This document shows positions 196-21,980 of a DNA stretch of 32,045 nt, one piece after another. The translations under genes were made by a program, and so were the position numbers. Origin of the DNA: Burkholderiales bacterium (GTDB lineage: Bacteria > Pseudomonadota > Gammaproteobacteria > Burkholderiales > Casimicrobiaceae); assembly GCA_025981645.1 (NCBI GenBank), contig JAICXH010000024.1, positions 1 through 32,045 of the forward strand, written 5' to 3'. How positions within the stretch are numbered: position 1 is the first letter of the stretch; every line of letters starts with the position of its first letter. Under the pieces are notes generated by a model. That model ran no database searches, was not told the DNA's origin, and saw nothing but the letters and a program-made list of their open reading frames with translations.

Positions 196-978
196 ATGCT
201 ACGCCTCGCGCAACGCAGCCTTCCCGCCGTCGCGGCGGCCCTAATGATGATCGCCGGCACGCCGGCGCAAGCGGACATCATCTTCACTACCAGCGGAACC
301 ACGACCGGTGGGTCGGTTGCCGGGACCGCCGACTTCAACATCGGCGCGACGACGATGACCCTGACGCTGACAAACACCACCACGTCGATTACTTCGATTG
401 CGCAAGTTCTGGACGCGCTCTCGTTCACCCTCGTGGGTGGTTCCGGGCTCAGCTTGACGAGCGTCGCAGCGAGCGGGTTCGTCGACTGTACCAGCGGCAC
501 GTGCGTCAGCGCGGCTTCGTTCCTCGACTACACGAACACGCCGCCGAACAGTCCGTCGACGCTGACGTCGCCGTACGACTGGTCGTACGCGTCGGGTCTG
601 CTCGCCGCGGGCAACGGCTCGTTCAAACCTGCCGGGGTAGTGAACAGCGGCATCAGCAGCGCCGATGGCCTTCCGAACAACCAGCACAACGACTATCTGC
701 TCGGTCCCGTCACGTTCACGTTCGGCTTCACGACCGCCCCGACGAACATCGCGGCCGCAACGTTTTACTGGGGTACGACGCCCGAAACGACGGTGGGCTC
801 GAGCTCGTCCAGCAGTTCCAGTTCGTCCAGCAGTTCCAGTTCGTCCAGCAGCTCGAGTTCGGGCGGCGGCGGCGCCAGCAATGGCGGCAACATTCCGGAA
901 CCCGCGACGCTCGCGCTCCTCGGCCTTGGTCTCGCAGCGATGGGCATCGCGCGTCGGCGCCGCGCCGGGCGCGCCTGA
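196..978 (+). CDS. PEP-CTERM sorting domain surface protein with poly-serine linker
   Basis: A 260-residue secreted protein. Residues 1-26 form a signal peptide ending in an Ala-x-Ala-type site (TPAQA). The body to about residue 198 is Thr/Ser/Gly-rich with no motif I recognise. A run of 21 serines (202-222) and a Gly stretch lead to the C-terminal sorting signal: Pro-Glu-Pro at 234-236, a hydrophobic helix, then an Arg-rich tail. In this family an exosortase (EpsH/XrtA type) cuts near the PEP motif, and the proteins are usually tied to exopolysaccharide and floc or biofilm matrix. The ATG at 196 follows GGAGAAAG at a good distance. The sigma-54 promoter upstream and the terminator at 1057 suggest a single-gene transcript. 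The exosortase must be encoded elsewhere. The exact function is unknown. Confidence 0.93.
   Translation: MLRLAQRSLPAVAAALMMIAGTPAQADIIFTTSGTTTGGSVAGTADFNIGATTMTLTLTNTTTSITSIAQVLDALSFTLVGGSGLSLTSVAASGFVDCTSGTCVSAASFLDYTNTPPNSPSTLTSPYDWSYASGLLAAGNGSFKPAGVVNSGISSADGLPNNQHNDYLLGPVTFTFGFTTAPTNIAAATFYWGTTPETTVGSSSSSSSSSSSSSSSSSSSSSGGGGASNGGNIPEPATLALLGLGLAAMGIARRRRAGRA
805..858 (+). repeat. 18-bp tandem repeat, three copies, coding poly-serine
   Basis: Three consecutive 18-base units (805-822, 823-840, 841-858) encode six serines each. The first two are identical and the third differs at two positions. The unit is a multiple of three, so slippage would lengthen or shorten the serine linker before the PEP-CTERM anchor without breaking the frame. 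Confidence 0.9.
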
Positions 979-2506: not shown

Positions 2507-4672
2507 CTACCTGGTCACCTGAATCTGCGTCGACGCCACGTTCCCGGCTGCGTCGGTCGCAGTGACCTTGATCGTGTGGGTGCCGGACGCGACCTTTTTC
2601 ACGTTCCAGGTGTAGCCGAGCGATCCGCCCGTCACCGTGGTTCTCAACCCGCCGTCGATGTAAAGCTTCTGCGTGATCCCCGCTGCGCCCGAGTTGTCGG
2701 TCGCGCTCGCGGTGATCGAGACGTTTCTCGTACCGATTACGCTTCCGTTGGCCGGACTCGTGATCTTGACAACCGGTGGCGTCGTGTCAGCCGCGACCGC
2801 AGCGCTCGTCCCGTTCGAGACGTTCACGGACACCGGTGCCGAGACCGTCGAGTTGCCAGCCGCGTCATAGGCCTTCGCCGTCAGCGACACGGTTCCGTTC
2901 CCCGCCGTCGTCGTGTTCCACGCGAGACCGTACGGTGCCGTATTGCCGCTGGCGACGATCGCGCCATTGACCATCAGGCTGACCTGCGTCACGCCGACGT
3001 TGTCTGAAGCGTTCACGCTGACGGTCACCGTACCCGACACGGTACCGCCGGTCGGCGATGCGATCGACACGGTCGGTGGCGTCGTATCGACCGACGACGT
3101 CGTCACATTGGAGACGTTCACCGTCACTACGGCCGAAGTCGCCGTGTTGCCGGCTGCATCCGACGCGATCGCCGCGAGCTTGACCGAGCCGTTCGGAACG
3201 CTGGTCGAATTCCAGGTGAACTGGTACGGAGCCGTCGAGTCGGCGGCGATCACCGTTCCATTCACCGCGAGGCTTACCTTGGCCACGCCGACGTTGTCGG
3301 AAGCGTTGACGCTGATCGTCACACTGCCCGAGACGGTGCCCCCGGTCGGCGACGCGATCGAAACCGTCGGAGGGGTCGTGTCGGCGACGGTCTTGGGAGC
3401 AGCGATCGCGGCCTCCACGGCTCCGGCAGCGTTGACCTCGCCATAGCCGTAGTAGATGTCGAGGCCCGGTGCGCCGAGGTCCTTCGCCGTCGACTCGAGC
3501 GTCGAATCGACCTGGTTCGCGGTGAAGTCGGGTCGCGCCGACAGAATCAGTGCCGCCGTGGCGGCGACGATCGGCGTCGCAAAGGACGTCCCCCAGCAGT
3601 TCCAGTAGCCGCCGGTCCACGCAGTCGAGATGATGTTGTTGCCCGGGGCCGAGATGTCGACGAACGAGCCGTAGGTCGAGAAGCTTGCAAGCGTATCGCC
3701 CTGCTGCAGCGCCGACACGACCATCATCAAATTGGTTGGCGTCGTGTTGTCGATCGCCCCTGTATTGCCCGCCGCGACGTAGAGCACGCCACCCTTCGAG
3801 CGCAGGTAGCTCGCCGCGCTCTGGATTGTCGAGCTCGCCGATGCGCCGACGTAGCTCAGGTTCTCGACGCGCGCGCCATGGTCGGCCGCCCAGGTGATCC
3901 CTTGTGCGACGGTGCTCCAGTACGCATAGGCGCTCGGATTGGCGATCACGACAGGCATGATCTTCGCGCCGCCGGCGACGGACGCGACGCCGATCGAATT
4001 GTTCGTCGCCGCGGCTGCGGTTCCGGCCACCGCGGTACCGTGACCGTTGGTGTCGGCGGTATTGCTGCTGTTCGCGTAGAAGTTCCATCCCGGAACCATC
4101 TGCGTCGCGAGGTCCGGATGGCTGCCGTCGACGCCGGTATCGAGAATCGCGATCACGACGCCCTTGCCCGTCGAATAGTTCCATGCGGTCGGCGCGCCGA
4201 CGTCGGGGAGGTGCCACTCGCTCGAATAATACGTATCGTTCGCCGTTCCGGCGGCCTGGACGACGCCGTCGACCTCGGCGAACTTGATCTTCGGGTTGTT
4301 CTGCAGGCGCTTCACCATCGCCTGCTCGTTCCCCGGGGGAACGTTGACGACGTGCACCGTGGTCCCGTTCAGCTTGCCGATCGTATGACCGCCGCTGGCG
4401 GCGAAGATCGCCTCGGCGTCCGCGTCGCTCACGTCGCTTTTCGGCGCGACAAGAATGTGGCCGCGGGCGAACGCGGCCCCGTGCGCGAGACCCGTCGCGC
4501 TCTGCGCGCCGGCGCTCATGCTCCACGCGAAGGCCACGACCGCCATCAGGATCACCATGGCGAAGCGGAGCGACTGCGACGGCACGGCCGTCATCGCCGC
4601 GCGCTGCAACGGCTGCAGCCGACCGGCGACGGAGCCCCTCGCGGAACGTGTCGGGAATACCTGCGAATGCAT
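2507..4672 (-). CDS. secreted subtilisin-like (S8) serine protease with three Ig-like domains
   Basis: A 721-residue exported protease. An unusually long N-terminus precedes a signal peptide (about 27-57, ending near SAGAQS). An inhibitor-I9/thermitase-like propeptide follows (about 70-140), then the S8 domain with Asp178 (LDTG), His211 (NGHGT), Asn303 (oxyanion hole) and Ser363 (GTSFATP), so the catalytic set is complete. The C-terminus has three tandem repeats of about 90 residues starting with DTTPP (431, 529, 630), resembling bacterial Ig-like (Big) domains used in surface or matrix binding. There is no PEP-CTERM tail. The ATG at 4672 was chosen because GGAGG lies 7 bases upstream (4680-4684). 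The frame stays open further upstream, and a start at 4594 would give a shorter leader but lacks a ribosome site. A cyclic-di-GMP riboswitch lies in the leader. Confidence 0.93.
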   Translation of the reverse strand: MHSQVFPTRSARGSVAGRLQPLQRAAMTAVPSQSLRFAMVILMAVVAFAWSMSAGAQSATGLAHGAAFARGHILVAPKSDVSDADAEAIFAASGGHTIGKLNGTTVHVVNVPPGNEQAMVKRLQNNPKIKFAEVDGVVQAAGTANDTYYSSEWHLPDVGAPTAWNYSTGKGVVIAILDTGVDGSHPDLATQMVPGWNFYANSSNTADTNGHGTAVAGTAAAATNNSIGVASVAGGAKIMPVVIANPSAYAYWSTVAQGITWAADHGARVENLSYVGASASSTIQSAASYLRSKGGVLYVAAGNTGAIDNTTPTNLMMVVSALQQGDTLASFSTYGSFVDISAPGNNIISTAWTGGYWNCWGTSFATPIVAATAALILSARPDFTANQVDSTLESTAKDLGAPGLDIYYGYGEVNAAGAVEAAIAAPKTVADTTPPTVSIASPTGGTVSGSVTISVNASDNVGVAKVSLAVNGTVIAADSTAPYQFTWNSTSVPNGSVKLAAIASDAAGNTATSAVVTVNVSNVTTSSVDTTPPTVSIASPTGGTVSGTVTVSVNASDNVGVTQVSLMVNGAIVASGNTAPYGLAWNTTTAGNGTVSLTAKAYDAAGNSTVSAPVSVNVSNGTSAAVAADTTPPVVKITSPANGSVIGTRNVSITASATDNSGAAGITQKLYIDGGLRTTVTGGSLGYTWNVKKVASGTHTIKVTATDAAGNVASTQIQVTR
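2510..3382 (-). repeat. three tandem Ig-like domain repeats within the protease gene
   Basis: Units run approximately 3382-3110, 3088-2815 and 2785-2510. The first two are very similar at DNA level, for instance around the shared SDNVG coding stretch, while the third is diverged. This points to a relatively recent duplication of the first two units and gives scope for copy-number change by recombination. Confidence 0.8.
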
Positions 4673-4814
4673 GAGACTGCCTCCAGAGCGGTGATCGGGC
4701 TCCGCAGGCCTGCGACGACGAGCGGACCGCATCGCGAACTGCGCGATGGAATCCGTACCGCCGGGATTGAACGCTGCACGCACCGCCGAAGCATCGGGTC
4801 GGCGCAGTGAGCTA

Positions 4815-4912
4815 CCAGTCCGGCAGTCCCGCTGTCGTAGAACCCGTAGGGTCCGTTAGACCGGAAACTTTGCGTCCCCGGCTTTCGCCGGGTTTGCCCT
4901 TGTACAGACCAA
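4815..4912 (-). promoter_or_regulatory. cyclic-di-GMP-I (GEMM-I) riboswitch in the protease leader
   Basis: Read on the minus strand, the segment contains the GEMM-I hallmarks in order: AGGGCAAACC, a CCCGGC-GAAA-GCCGGG stem with the GNRA tetraloop, GGGACGCAAAG, then TCCGG and CTAA of the tetraloop receptor, and AGCGGG near the 3' end. A second hairpin, GGACCC-TAC-GGGTTC, fills the P3 position. TTGGTC (4912-4907) can pair with GACTGG (4820-4815) as P1. This aptamer class binds cyclic-di-GMP in the nascent RNA. It starts just after a -10 box and lies about 140 bases upstream of the protease ATG, so it should control the protease. The expression platform is unclear: a CGCCGA/TCGGCG hairpin follows without a T-tract. 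Whether it switches on or off cannot be told. Confidence 0.93.
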
Positions 4913-4931
4913 CTTCCGATATGACGCTGGC

Positions 4932-4962
4932 ATTGTAACGCGAGAACCGGAGTCGGACGCAA
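4932..4962 (-). promoter_or_regulatory. sigma-70-type promoter of the riboswitch-protease transcript
   Basis: On the minus strand TACAAT (4937-4932) is a 5/6 match to the -10 box. TTGCGT (4962-4957) is a 4/6 match to the -35 box with a long 19-base spacer. The start site would fall near 4925, a dozen bases before the riboswitch P1 helix. This is the arrangement expected for a riboswitch transcript, and that placement is the main support. Confidence 0.6.
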
Positions 4963-5049: not shown

Positions 5050-5083
5050 GCATCATTTGCACGATGTGTAGTGCACATGATGC
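5050..5083. promoter_or_regulatory. 13-bp inverted repeat at the 5' end of queA
   Basis: GCATCATTTGCAC (5050-5062) and GTGCACATGATGC (5071-5083) are reverse complements at 12 of 13 positions, with an 8-base spacer. The dyad covers the earliest in-frame start codons of queA (5071, 5077, 5080). It is AT-richer than its surroundings. It could be an operator or an mRNA hairpin, and it argues for a queA start downstream of it. Confidence 0.55.
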
Positions 5084-5124
5084 GCGCTGACACGATGAAC
5101 GCGTACGGAATGAACTCGAACACG

Positions 5125-6285
5125 ATGAACATCAACGAACCGAGCAGGACCTACGCGCTCGCCGATTTCGATTACGCGCTGCCTCCCGAGCTGATCGCGC
5201 AAACTCCTGCGCCGGAGCGCCGCGCAAGTCGGCTCCTCCACGTCGCGCCGCGAAGCGCAGGCGCACCGCAGCTTGACGACCTCACGTTCGCCGACCTGCC
5301 GACGCTGATCGCTCCTGGCGACCTGATTGTGCTCAACGACACCCGCGTCATCCGCGCACGCGTGAGAGGGCGCAAGCCGACGGGCGGTGACGTCGAGATG
5401 CTGGTCGAGCGCGTCATCGGTGACGACACCGCGATCGTGCAGATGCGCGCGAGCCACCTGCCGCGCGCCGGAGGGGTGGTGTTGCTCCCGGCGAACGCGC
5501 GGGCCACGGTGATCCGCCGCGACGAGCGATTCTTCGAGCTCCGCTTCGAAGGCACCGGACCGTTGGCCGCATGGCTCGAGGCGCACGGGGAGGTGCCGCT
5601 TCCCCCCTACATCGAGCACGCCCCCGACGCTGCGGACGCCGAGCGCTACCAGACCGTGTACGCGCGTGCACCGGGGGCCGTCGCGGCGCCCACGGCGGGA
5701 CTTCACTTCGACGCGGCGATGCTCGACACGCTGGGCGCGAAGGGTGTCGGGATCGCCTACGTCACGCTGCACGTCGGCGCCGGAACCTTTCAGCCAGTGT
5801 CGAGCGACGATCTCTCGCGGCACCGGATGCACGCCGAGGTCTACGATATTCCGCGCTCGACCGCCGAGGCGATCGCCGCGACGCGAGCGCGAGGCGGCCG
5901 CGTGATGGCGGTCGGGACGACGACGCTGCGCGCCCTCGAGGCGGCTGCGGTGCCAACTGCGCGCCGTCCCGTCGATGCAAATTCGCTCGGCGTGCAGGCG
6001 CCCGGCGCGGCGGCACCGATTCGCGCGGGCCACGGCGAGACGGCGCTCTTCATCACGCCGGGCTACGTCTTTCGCGTCGTCGATCGCCTGCTGACCAATT
6101 TCCACCTGCCGCGCTCGACGCTCCTGATGCTGGTGAGCGCATTTGCGGGCTATGAGGCGATGCGCGAAGCGTACGCGCATGCGGTCGCCAAACGCTACCG
6201 CTTCATGAGCTACGGCGACGCGAGCCTGCTGGAACGCCCGCACCTCTGTCGGCACGTCCGTGAGGCTGTTCAATTGTCGCCATGA
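5125..6285 (+). CDS. queA: S-adenosylmethionine:tRNA ribosyltransferase-isomerase
   Basis: QueA transfers and rearranges the ribosyl part of S-adenosylmethionine onto 7-aminomethyl-7-deazaguanine at tRNA position 34, making epoxyqueuosine in the cytoplasm. Family motifs are clear: [12 protein letters not shown] at the N-terminus, [54 protein letters not shown] and [19 protein letters not shown]. From 5125 the protein has 386 residues, against about 356 in E. coli. The excess includes an Ala/Pro-rich insert (AAAVPTARR... to GHGET) before the FITPGY segment. The start is uncertain: in-frame ATGs at 5077, 5080, 5095, 5110 and 5125 sit in a small repeated ATGAAC pattern with no clear ribosome site. 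I chose 5125 as closest to the family N-terminus. tgt, the earlier step of the same pathway, lies downstream. Confidence 0.95.
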
Positions 6286-19610: not shown

Positions 19611-21980
19611 ATGAGCGTCACGGCCGGCCCGCCCGACACGGCCCGGCCCGGCACGACGAACCGAAGTGATCTCGCGGCCATGCGACGCGGCACTCGCCAC
19701 GACGGCACACCCCTGACCACCGACACCGGGCGGCCGATCGAACTGCCGCCGGTCAGGACGCGGCTCGCCACCAAGTTCAATCTTCTGTCGATCGGGCTCA
19801 TCGTCCTCACCGCAGTCGCAGTGACGGCGTTCGTGTTCTATCGCCAGTGGGTCGACGCCGAGCGCCAACTTCGCGTGCAGGGCGAGACGCTCGCGCAGAT
19901 GCTTGCCGACCTCTCCGCGCAAGGACTGCGCGAACGCGACGGCGCTGGTCTTGCGCACATCCTCGAAAGTCTTCCCGAAGAGCCGAACTTCGCCTACGTC
20001 TACGTCCTCGACGCCGAACGGCACGCGGTCGCCGTTCGGTACCTCGCGCCGGCGCTACGCGATGGCGTGATCCCCGGGCTCGCCGCCGGCGAGCTACCGC
20101 CCCGAAGCGGCCCGACGCGCATCGTCGACCGCGCGTTCCCCGAAGGCCGATTCCTCGAGTTCGTGACGCCGGTGGTCGCACCGGGTGCCCGACTCGGGAC
20201 GCCCGAGGCCAATGCCAACAATGCGCGCACCGCGGGCCTCGTCAATCGCGCCGCGCTGTTGCAGGCGCCTCTCGGCTACATCCGTCTCGGAATGAGCTTC
20301 GAGACACAGCGTGCGGTGCTGCTCGAGCAGATGCTGGGCGCGCTCGCCGTGGCCGCGGTGCTGATCGTGATGGCAGTCGTCGTCACCGTCATCCTCACGC
20401 GCCGGCTGGTGGCCCCGATGCACCGGCTGATGCGGGCGGCGCGCGCCGTCGGCGCCGGCCGTCTCGACGTGCGCGTACCGGCGCGCTCGTCGGACGAGCT
20501 CGGCCTGCTGACGCATACGTTCAATCACATGACGCAGCGCCTGGCGCGCTCGCAGGAGCAGGTCGCGAACTACCAGCGCACGCTCGAGGACAAGGTCGCG
20601 CAGCGCACGCGCGAGCTCGAGATCGCGACCGCGCACGCGTTCAAGCTCGCGCAGCACGACATCCTCACCGGGCTGCCGAACCGGTCGCTCCTCAACCAGC
20701 GGCTACGGCAGATCATCGCGCAGGCGCACCGCGACGGTACGCTGGTCGGCTGCCTGTTCCTCGACTTCGATCACTTCAAGCGCATCAACGACACGCTCGG
20801 CCACGATGCCGGCGACCAGCTGCTGCGCGCGATCGGCCAGCGACTCGTCGGCGCCACCCGCGAGAGCGACACCGTCGCGCGCCTCGGCGGAGACGAGTTC
20901 GTCGTCATCCTCCCGGGGCTCGACCCCGCGCAGGGCTCGCTCGAGGTGCTGGCGGTGATTCAGCGCATCCGCGAGTCGCTGCTCGCTCCGTTCCGGCTCG
21001 GCGACCAGACACCGACGCTCACCTGTTCGATCGGCGTTGCCATGTACCCGCTCGATGCGCACGACGCGGTCGCGCTGATCAAGCAGGCCGACACCGCGAT
21101 GTACGCGGCGAAGGATGCAGGACGCAATGCCTGGCGCTTCTACGAGGCCGAGATGAACACGCGGCTGCAGCAGCGGCTGCAGCTCGAGACCGACATGCGC
21201 CGCGCGCTGATGGACGACGAGTTCTTCCTCGTCTACCAACCGCAGATCGAGCTGCGCAGCGGCCGCGCGTGCGGCGTCGAAGTGCTGCTGCGCTGGCGCG
21301 ATCCCGAGCGTGGCATCGTCCTGCCGAGCGAATTCATCCCCATCGCCGAGGAATCAGGGATGATCCACGATCTCGGGGCACGCGTGCTCCGCGATGCATG
21401 CCGGCAGGTCGTGCAGTGGCATCGCCAGGACATCCCGCTACGACTCTCGGTCAACCTGTCGGTGCAGCAGCTCGAGCACGACGAGTGGCTGGCGACCCTC
21501 GAGGAAGCGCTGAAGGCGAGCAGCCTCGCACCGCACTACCTCGATCTCGAGATTACCGAGAGCGTGATCATCTCGCACCCCGAGCGCGTCGTGGCGACGC
21601 TGATGCGCCTGAAGCAGATGGGCGTGTCGATCACCATCGACGACTTCGGAACCGGCTATTCGAGCCTGTCCTACCTCGCGCGGCTGCCGATCCAGGGCCT
21701 CAAAATCGACCAGCGTTTCGTGCATGGCCTCGGCAAGCACCGCAACGACGAGGCGATCACGCAGGCGATCATCGCGATGGCGCACTCGCTGTCGCTGCGC
21801 TGCATCGCCGAGGGCGTCGAAACCGCCGCGCAGGCGGAGTACCTGAAAAGCCACGGCTGCGAGGAGGCGCAGGGCTACCTCTACACGCAGCCGCTGCCCG
21901 AGCGCGAGTTCAGGGCATGGTGGCGCGAGCGCGAAGACTCGCTCGCCGAGTCCACCCATCAGCGCGCGCTCTGGCAGTAG
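19611..21980 (+). CDS. membrane GGDEF-EAL protein (diguanylate cyclase/phosphodiesterase)
   Basis: A 789-residue protein. An N-terminal helix (about 55-76), an extracytoplasmic sensor region (to about 240), a second helix (about 242-266) and a HAMP region with a coiled-coil linker (to about 350) precede the catalytic half. The GGDEF domain keeps GGDEF at 426-430 and the inhibitory-site RESD at 417-420, five residues before it. The EAL domain has EVL (557-559) instead of EAL but retains NLS, ITESV, DDFGTGYSSL, LKID and AEGVET, so phosphodiesterase activity is plausible. It probably makes and/or breaks cyclic-di-GMP in response to a periplasmic signal. The net direction cannot be read from sequence. 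The start at 19611 has a weak ribosome site, and ATG 19680 is an alternative. The stop abuts the livF stop directly. Confidence 0.95.
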   Translation: MSVTAGPPDTARPGTTNRSDLAAMRRGTRHDGTPLTTDTGRPIELPPVRTRLATKFNLLSIGLIVLTAVAVTAFVFYRQWVDAERQLRVQGETLAQMLADLSAQGLRERDGAGLAHILESLPEEPNFAYVYVLDAERHAVAVRYLAPALRDGVIPGLAAGELPPRSGPTRIVDRAFPEGRFLEFVTPVVAPGARLGTPEANANNARTAGLVNRAALLQAPLGYIRLGMSFETQRAVLLEQMLGALAVAAVLIVMAVVVTVILTRRLVAPMHRLMRAARAVGAGRLDVRVPARSSDELGLLTHTFNHMTQRLARSQEQVANYQRTLEDKVAQRTRELEIATAHAFKLAQHDILTGLPNRSLLNQRLRQIIAQAHRDGTLVGCLFLDFDHFKRINDTLGHDAGDQLLRAIGQRLVGATRESDTVARLGGDEFVVILPGLDPAQGSLEVLAVIQRIRESLLAPFRLGDQTPTLTCSIGVAMYPLDAHDAVALIKQADTAMYAAKDAGRNAWRFYEAEMNTRLQQRLQLETDMRRALMDDEFFLVYQPQIELRSGRACGVEVLLRWRDPERGIVLPSEFIPIAEESGMIHDLGARVLRDACRQVVQWHRQDIPLRLSVNLSVQQLEHDEWLATLEEALKASSLAPHYLDLEITESVIISHPERVVATLMRLKQMGVSITIDDFGTGYSSLSYLARLPIQGLKIDQRFVHGLGKHRNDEAITQAIIAMAHSLSLRCIAEGVETAAQAEYLKSHGCEEAQGYLYTQPLPEREFRAWWREREDSLAESTHQRALWQ

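Follow-up and report, generated by a model that had tools for sequence, protein, structure and literature searches.

The stretch of DNA analysed here, 32,045 nucleotides of a contig (JAICXH010000024.1) from a Burkholderiales bacterium of the family Casimicrobiaceae and referred to below as the window, carries on its minus strand a complete class I cyclic di-GMP (c-di-GMP) riboswitch aptamer (c-di-GMP-I, also GEMM-I) in the leader of a gene for a subtilisin-like (S8) protease. The explanation that best accounts for the whole of the observations, to which we assign a probability of roughly 0.7, is a GEMM-I switch that would bind c-di-GMP and control this one gene, whose product is probably secreted, turning it off at the level of translation when the ligand is abundant. 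The positions of all features are collected in Table 1.

The aptamer was the sole match at the gathering threshold when the whole window was compared by cmscan with 4227 Rfam families (RF01051, 79.1 bits against a cut-off of 35, E = 3.3e-14, model positions 1–87), the tool having suppressed a weaker, overlapping match from that clan. A first-pass annotation, made from the letters of the window, had described a well-preserved GEMM-I aptamer in the minus-strand leader and had named a covariance-model search as its check; the match obtained is full-length and lies clearly above the cut-off. The GAAA-tetraloop P2, the CTAA receptor and the paired P3 appear in the alignment as they had been described, together with GGGACGCAAAG, and no non-standard pair is marked. 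Outside the Rfam structure line a P1 helix of nine pairs (G-U allowed) closes the three-way junction. Across 10 listed leaders (loci and their leaders carry L numbers and genomes G numbers throughout) the length of P1 ranges from 4 to 10 pairs, G-U again allowed, and its sequence changes on both strands, with CGGUUCG/CGAACUG in L014 vs CGGUCUG/CGGACUG. The leader therefore contains, with near certainty, a c-di-GMP-I aptamer. A decayed or chance aptamer devoid of regulation is hardly credible given this E value, the lack of non-standard pairs, the double-sided changes in P1 and the conserved linkage described below. No second GEMM-I aptamer was found in the genome of the window (2.76 Mb in 154 contigs, 87% complete).

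The open reading frame behind the aptamer agrees with the S8 protease with Ig-like domains that had been read from the sequence at the outset. It comprises a Fervidolysin-type prodomain, a Peptidase_S8 domain (PF00082, E = 4.2e-48) with an intact catalytic triad (D178, H211 and S363) and three Big_7 Ig-like domains. The best sequence match in the PDB is thermitase (1thm, E = 1.1e-53), and thermitase and AK.1 protease are the nearest solved structures. The catalytic domain and the type of prodomain are those of thermitase/fervidolysin-type S8 proteases, from which the protein differs in its three Big_7 domains and in its riboswitch leader. The N terminus, judged by eye, is hydrophobic and signal-like and is followed by the prodomain, features that point to a protein that is probably secreted. 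Two S8 matches were found in the genome of the window.

The association of aptamer and protease extends well beyond this contig. Nine GEMM-I aptamers were found in 8 of the 22 genomes of the genus, and all eight that can be read on into a gene are followed by a protease, of three unrelated families: S8 in five cases (window, L010, L011, L014 and L015), M12B reprolysin-like with BACON domains in two (L012 and L016) and M11 gametolysin-like in one (L017), the ninth leader (L013) being cut by a contig end. The proteases behind these eight aptamers are likely all secreted. The S8 orthologue itself is present in five genomes of the genus, that of the window and four others at 63–74% identity, and has the aptamer just upstream in five of five; in G013 the orthologue is divided between two contigs, with one part on each. 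Across the wider family an aptamer match was obtained in 13 of 64 genomes. The genes behind the six further sites comprise two for type IV minor pilins, a pilV-like gene assigned by eye and unmatched in Pfam, an M12B protease gene, an Ig-domain gene truncated at a contig end and another gene that Pfam did not match.

Searching from the protein side gave the same association. A protein search of genome contigs returned eight loci, the three closest of which (L018, L019 and L020) all have an aptamer directly upstream; L019 is taken to be the same contig as L015, so that L018 and L020 are the two further records found by protein alone. The protease of L020, labelled Zoogloeaceae (Betaproteobacteria, placed in the order Rhodocyclales by NCBI), is only 47% identical to that of the window, and the aptamer is present. 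No aptamer was found at L021 and L023, the two scanned of the five distant loci (L021–L025). The record of L018 (DAHUXU010000294.1) is titled Gemmatimonadetes; its leader is near-identical to that of a member of the genus, G018 (L013), its protease is 70% identical to that of the window, and it is probably a mislabelled bin or a stray contig. The 16S rRNA genes of one genome of the window's family (G025) and of two genomes of the order (G353 and G326) have their best matches among plasmid records in Caballeronia, Burkholderia and Cupriavidus, at 90–92%, and the order is on this basis taken as Burkholderiales in the broad sense; the genome of the window yielded no 16S match. Among 399 genomes of the order, with at most five candidates scored per genome, 28 protease matches at E ≤ 1e-30 were found in 25 genomes, and all 27 other than the window were scanned for the aptamer. 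An RF01051 or RF03167 aptamer lies just upstream, on the same strand, in 16 of the 21 readable relatives at E ≤ 1e-60 (22 minus L218, which starts at a contig end), and in none of the five weaker matches (E > 1e-60 and ≤ 1e-30). In G408 two proteases of this kind are neighbours, and a separate aptamer precedes each of them (L214 and L223).

Taken from the aptamer side, a GEMM-I match is present in 149 of the 399 genomes of the order. One hundred places were drawn from the portion of these matches that had been listed, a sample in which weaker aptamers are not represented and to which a few genomes contributed two places; 90 were oriented by motif (10 were missed), and 89 of these are followed by an open reading frame and one is not, the start codons being chosen by script and possibly wrong in places. 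Clustering by blastp of the genes behind the 89 aptamers gave 35 DUF1631-like proteins, 15 S8 proteases, four ankyrin-repeat cyclases and other clusters of three members at most. The S8 calls come from Pfam for L103, L116 and L187 and from our own S8 profile for the others, and the loci of the searches supplied one more S8 case, L075. The 21 aptamer-bearing genomes searched (20 of the order, three of which belong to loci missed by the orienting motif, plus that of the window) hold a total of 34 S8 matches, a figure that includes fragments of single genes, so that S8 at 15 of 89 loci greatly exceeds what chance would give for a single gene position. In a tree of 33 S8 domains the protease of the window falls in a clade of 16 (98/95), all of them aptamer-linked, and five other aptamer-linked S8 genes (L116, L157, L159, L187 and L189) lie outside it, the aptamer label requiring two changes; the rows of this tree were mostly chosen for their aptamer and include none of the aptamer-less close kin, and the tree gives no rate of aptamer absence. 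At L178/L217 (G153) the S8 matches behind the aptamer are spread over separate reading frames, and the gene is a copy either broken or wrongly assembled. As the aptamer–S8 link is conserved over a long evolutionary distance, it is no accident of one contig, and from these sequence comparisons the aptamer very probably controls the protease of the window.

The identity of the ligand was approached through the bases of the binding site. The G at model position 11 and A4871 were read in the RF01051 alignment, and the GCAAA motif is canonical. We take model position 11 to correspond to G20 of the Vc2 aptamer, and A4871 and C4823 to A47 and C92 in Vc2 numbering. Because the base equivalent to G20 is a G, c-di-GMP rather than cyclic GMP-AMP (cGAMP) is the predicted ligand; an A at this position, the mark of cGAMP-sensing GEMM-I aptamers, is not present in the aptamer of the window. 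The variant family RF03167, whose name (c-di-GMP-I-GGC) presumably denotes a variant base set, was reported for the order-level S8 leaders L200, L201, L206 and L217 and for L011, and would favour an aptamer for another dinucleotide such as cGAMP. For the window we regard this as very improbable: its aptamer was reported under RF01051, has G at the equivalent of G20 and keeps the A of GCAAA, GCAAA is still found in L011 (also listed as L003) under RF03167, and the genome encodes GGDEF and EAL domains (6 and 5 matches, respectively), one of each belonging to a protein of the window's contig that may turn over c-di-GMP (Table 1). Position G11 of Cd1 fits the equivalence with G20, which is tied to the choice between dinucleotides (PMC9262584), while cGAMP sensors are described within GEMM-I and the G20A change is linked to cGAMP (PMC6274999).

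The stretch between the aptamer and the ATG is 146 nucleotides long. In the mechanism that we propose, a segment of this stretch would pair at low ligand with the 3' strand of the aptamer (P3/P1), leaving the Shine-Dalgarno (SD) sequence free; c-di-GMP would stabilise P1 and P3 and release the segment, which would then pair with the SD sequence and block initiation of translation. The protease would be made when c-di-GMP falls, for instance cutting surface or matrix proteins in dispersal or serving to feed on extracellular protein; a part in dispersal is put forward only tentatively. That control is translational rather than terminator-based we consider reasonably probable, and an OFF response to high c-di-GMP is held with similar, moderate confidence. 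Control by an intrinsic terminator is unsupported. No terminator-like site was found between positions 4600 and 5200 of the window, which bears out the earlier remark that a standard terminator is missing, and by our own criterion, a stem with a T-run, none was found in the 15 order-level S8 leaders, there being no GC-rich hairpin with a U-run in either.

The pairing required by this mechanism was examined in 22 leaders, nine of them near (window, L010, L011, L012, L014, L015, L016, L018 and L020, of which L012 and L016 precede M12B genes) and 13 of the order-level S8 set; L013, being truncated, and L103 and L159, with uncertain gene starts, were excluded. The dual-pairing test searched the stretch between aptamer and gene for 12 nucleotides capable of two alternative pairings, one with the SD region and one with the 3' strand of the aptamer, against 100 dinucleotide shuffles, and was applied to 21 leaders, L157 being too short. 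Dual pairing reached p ≤ 0.03 in four of them (L020, L163, L168 and L177), and L118 gave p = 0.07. Six leaders examined afterwards with 200 shuffles gave p = 0.06, 0.085, 0.95, 0.755, 0.01 (L214) and 0.09, four of the six below 0.10, and are not fully independent: L214 and L168 come from one gene pair, L202 and L203 are alike, and L103, read from an alternative start, makes the sixth. The CAGGA(C/U) of the aptamer 3' strand recurs in the SD stretch of L168, L177 and L214, and the anti-SD segment must therefore choose between the two. Relative to shuffles, accessibility of the SD sequence is reduced (fraction ≤ 0.06) in 7 of the 22 leaders. A hairpin that would hold the SD sequence of the window was predicted in the minimum-energy folds (Table 1), and in the genus alignment its pairs are kept in register in 81.8% of the cells vs 30–52% when the strands are slid; with the downstream part folded alone a different fold wins. 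In some relatives the segment fits a translational OFF design like that of Vc2, and for the leader of the window itself the fit is no more than suggestive.

Several observations weigh against this reading. Dual pairing in the window gave p = 0.15 against 100 shuffles, a suggestive value only, and p exceeded 0.2 in 14 of the 21 leaders. The accessibility of the SD sequence in the window (0.41, shuffle mean 0.24, fraction 0.85) is not below that of the shuffles, and is about the same with and without the aptamer constraint (0.26 and 0.23). Of the other four leaders folded (L010, L012, L018 and L014), three show no difference between bound and free forms, and in L014 the slight difference runs opposite to the one expected (0.31 bound, 0.21 free); the comparison of bound and free folds in these five leaders is uninformative. 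Covariation of the SD hairpin in six leaders is within the range of shuffles, its score being reached by 170 of 500 and its number of paired cells by 192 of 500. As to the link itself, 5 of the 21 close protease relatives have no aptamer, four from one genus (L209, L210, L211 and L215, g36) and L219, whose protease lies within a 2736-codon frame. Two other candidate rules were dropped: simple competition for the 3' end of the aptamer by whatever segment follows gave z < -2 in only 4 of 22 leaders (L016, L118, L157 and L177; mean -0.43) and is no general rule, and a GTCCGGC complement of the P1 strand seen in L010 and L016 is not kept, by eye, in L015 or L014.

The lack of an intrinsic terminator, the long leader downstream of the aptamer and the unchanged SD accessibility upon aptamer constraint in the window would also suit Rho-dependent or another non-intrinsic termination within the 146 nucleotides, in place of SD sequestration. 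We judge this unlikely, the post-aptamer stretch being not C-rich and G-poor (35% C, 33% G) and predicted to be strongly structured, and designs in which dual pairing reaches the SD sequence being commoner than expected in related leaders. Known Rho loading sites are unlike such a G-containing, strongly structured stretch.

Three known systems bear on the direction of the proposed switch. In LapD–LapG of Pseudomonas fluorescens a membrane protein controls the activity of the protease, whereas in the window an RNA would act on protease synthesis. The likeness lies in the tie between low c-di-GMP and proteolysis, which leads there to proteolytic loss of a surface adhesin (PMC3032545, PMC3032553). 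A closer parallel is ppep-1 (zmpI, CD2830) of Clostridioides difficile, where a class I c-di-GMP riboswitch precedes the gene of a secreted Pro-Pro endopeptidase, which is made when c-di-GMP falls and releases adhesins (PMC11477304). Both systems place a class I c-di-GMP riboswitch, predicted in the case of the window, directly before a protease, which is secreted in C. difficile and probably so in the window; PPEP-1 is a metalloprotease from another phylum vs the serine protease of family S8 here, and the expression platform differs, no terminator having been found in the window. The target of Vc2, tfoY/VC1722, is a different kind of gene, and Vc2 further differs from the window, whose post-aptamer leader is GC-rich. 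Vc2 of Vibrio cholerae and the window share a GEMM-I aptamer with a real P1, which in Vc2 is central to a translational OFF switch (PMC9262584), and in the window translational control is our inference. The same paper records both directions of switching among GEMM-I riboswitches, and an ON switch, in which c-di-GMP would raise a protease serving attached cells, such as a colonisation or predation enzyme, would agree with the presence of the same kind of aptamer before minor pilin genes of the family (L062 and L067), which are expected to be induced. We consider the ON direction improbable in the window: the dual-pairing geometry sought, and found, is that of an OFF switch, direct pairing of the SD sequence with the aptamer, as would be expected of an ON switch, occurs no more often than by chance (1 of 22 leaders at p ≤ 0.05), and PPEP-1, the known secreted protease behind a class I switch, is produced when c-di-GMP is low.

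A class I riboswitch before a secreted protease is thus already known from PPEP-1, and what is unusual here is the wide and repeated link to proteases. A partial literature search found no report of GEMM-I control of S8 proteases, and an earlier mention is possible. A broader proposal, which we find plausible but somewhat short of an even chance, is an order-wide c-di-GMP exoprotease regulon in which GEMM-I control was acquired by a single orthologous clade of S8 proteases and, on separate occasions, by further S8 subfamilies and by M12B and M11-like metalloproteases; in part of them the ribosome-binding site would copy the aptamer 3' strand, with one anti-SD segment choosing between the two, and a fall in c-di-GMP would switch on secreted proteolysis in many genera, independently of PPEP-1. 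If this were true, many bacteria of the order would tie secreted proteolysis to the biofilm signal through an RNA switch and without a protein receptor, with the protease on when c-di-GMP falls as the general rule, and the link between class I c-di-GMP riboswitches and exoproteases would have arisen repeatedly and be no peculiarity of C. difficile.

Table 1. Features of the window discussed in the text, with positions on the 32,045-nucleotide stretch
Feature	Position	Strand	Basis or remark
c-di-GMP-I (GEMM-I) aptamer, complete	4819..4908	-	cmscan, RF01051
P1 5' strand GUUGGUCUG	4905..4913	-	9 pairs with 4822-4814
P1 3' strand CGGACUGGU	4814..4822	-	pairs with 4913-4905
Aptamer 3' strand CGGGACUGCC, end of P3; candidate partner of anti-SD segment	4822..4831	-	
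G at Rfam model position 11	4898..4898	-	cmscan alignment
Candidate switching segment X (CUGCGGAGCCCG)	4696..4707	-	pairs with SD at -13.2 and with aptamer at -12.7 kcal/mol
Predicted hairpin GCCU-CGGAGC...GCUCUG-AGGC that would hold the SD	4679..4709	-	minimum-energy folds, free and aptamer-constrained
SD sequence GGAGG, 7 nucleotides before ATG (4672)	4680..4684	-	anti-SD duplex -9.3 kcal/mol for GGAGGC
S8 (subtilisin-like) protease, 721 aa, probably secreted	2507..4672	-	Pfam and sequence
-10-like TACAAT; transcription start expected near 4925	4932..4937	-	box read in the sequence
Possible weak -35 TTGCGT, 19 nucleotides from -10	4957..4962	-	inferred by eye
queA, divergent neighbour (queuosine biosynthesis)	5071..6285	+	PF02547, E = 1.3e-121
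HAMP-GGDEF-EAL protein, possible c-di-GMP-turnover enzyme	19611..21980	+	one GGDEF and one EAL match

The leader occupies the divergent gap between queA and the protease, and as the upstream neighbour is divergent, the riboswitch leader should belong to its own transcript. The -10 box that had been placed in front of the aptamer is present as TACAAT, and the alignment has TATAAT or TACAAT at the same place in nine genus-type leaders (window, L010–L016 and L018), L017 and L020 being different. A generic sigma-70 promoter scan reported no site in the window, where the -35 half is weak and lies, by count, 19 nucleotides from the -10. Behind the -10 box, GTCATA (window 4920–4925) is identical in all of the nine genus-type leaders aligned; its conservation exceeds what a transcription start needs and may reflect a protein-binding site or an element of the 5' end. 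Beside the protease region lies a gene for a PEP-CTERM protein (window 196–978, PF07589), which points to an exopolysaccharide-linked sorting system in the organism.

Other genes recur behind GEMM-I aptamers. Type IV minor pilin (ComP/N_methyl) or pilin-like genes were seen at six loci, called by Pfam at L062, L067 and L135, by eye at L065 and by clustering at L166 and L194. The commonest cluster is that of DUF1631 (L098, L099, L101 and 32 others; PF07793 checked on the representative L098), for which a literature search found no paper linking it with c-di-GMP, and the domain may have a function in c-di-GMP biology. At L138, L147, L153 and L190 the aptamer precedes a single cluster whose representative, L138, combines a Guanylate_cyc-type cyclase domain with ankyrin repeats, and a cross-talk from c-di-GMP to another cyclic nucleotide is possible there.

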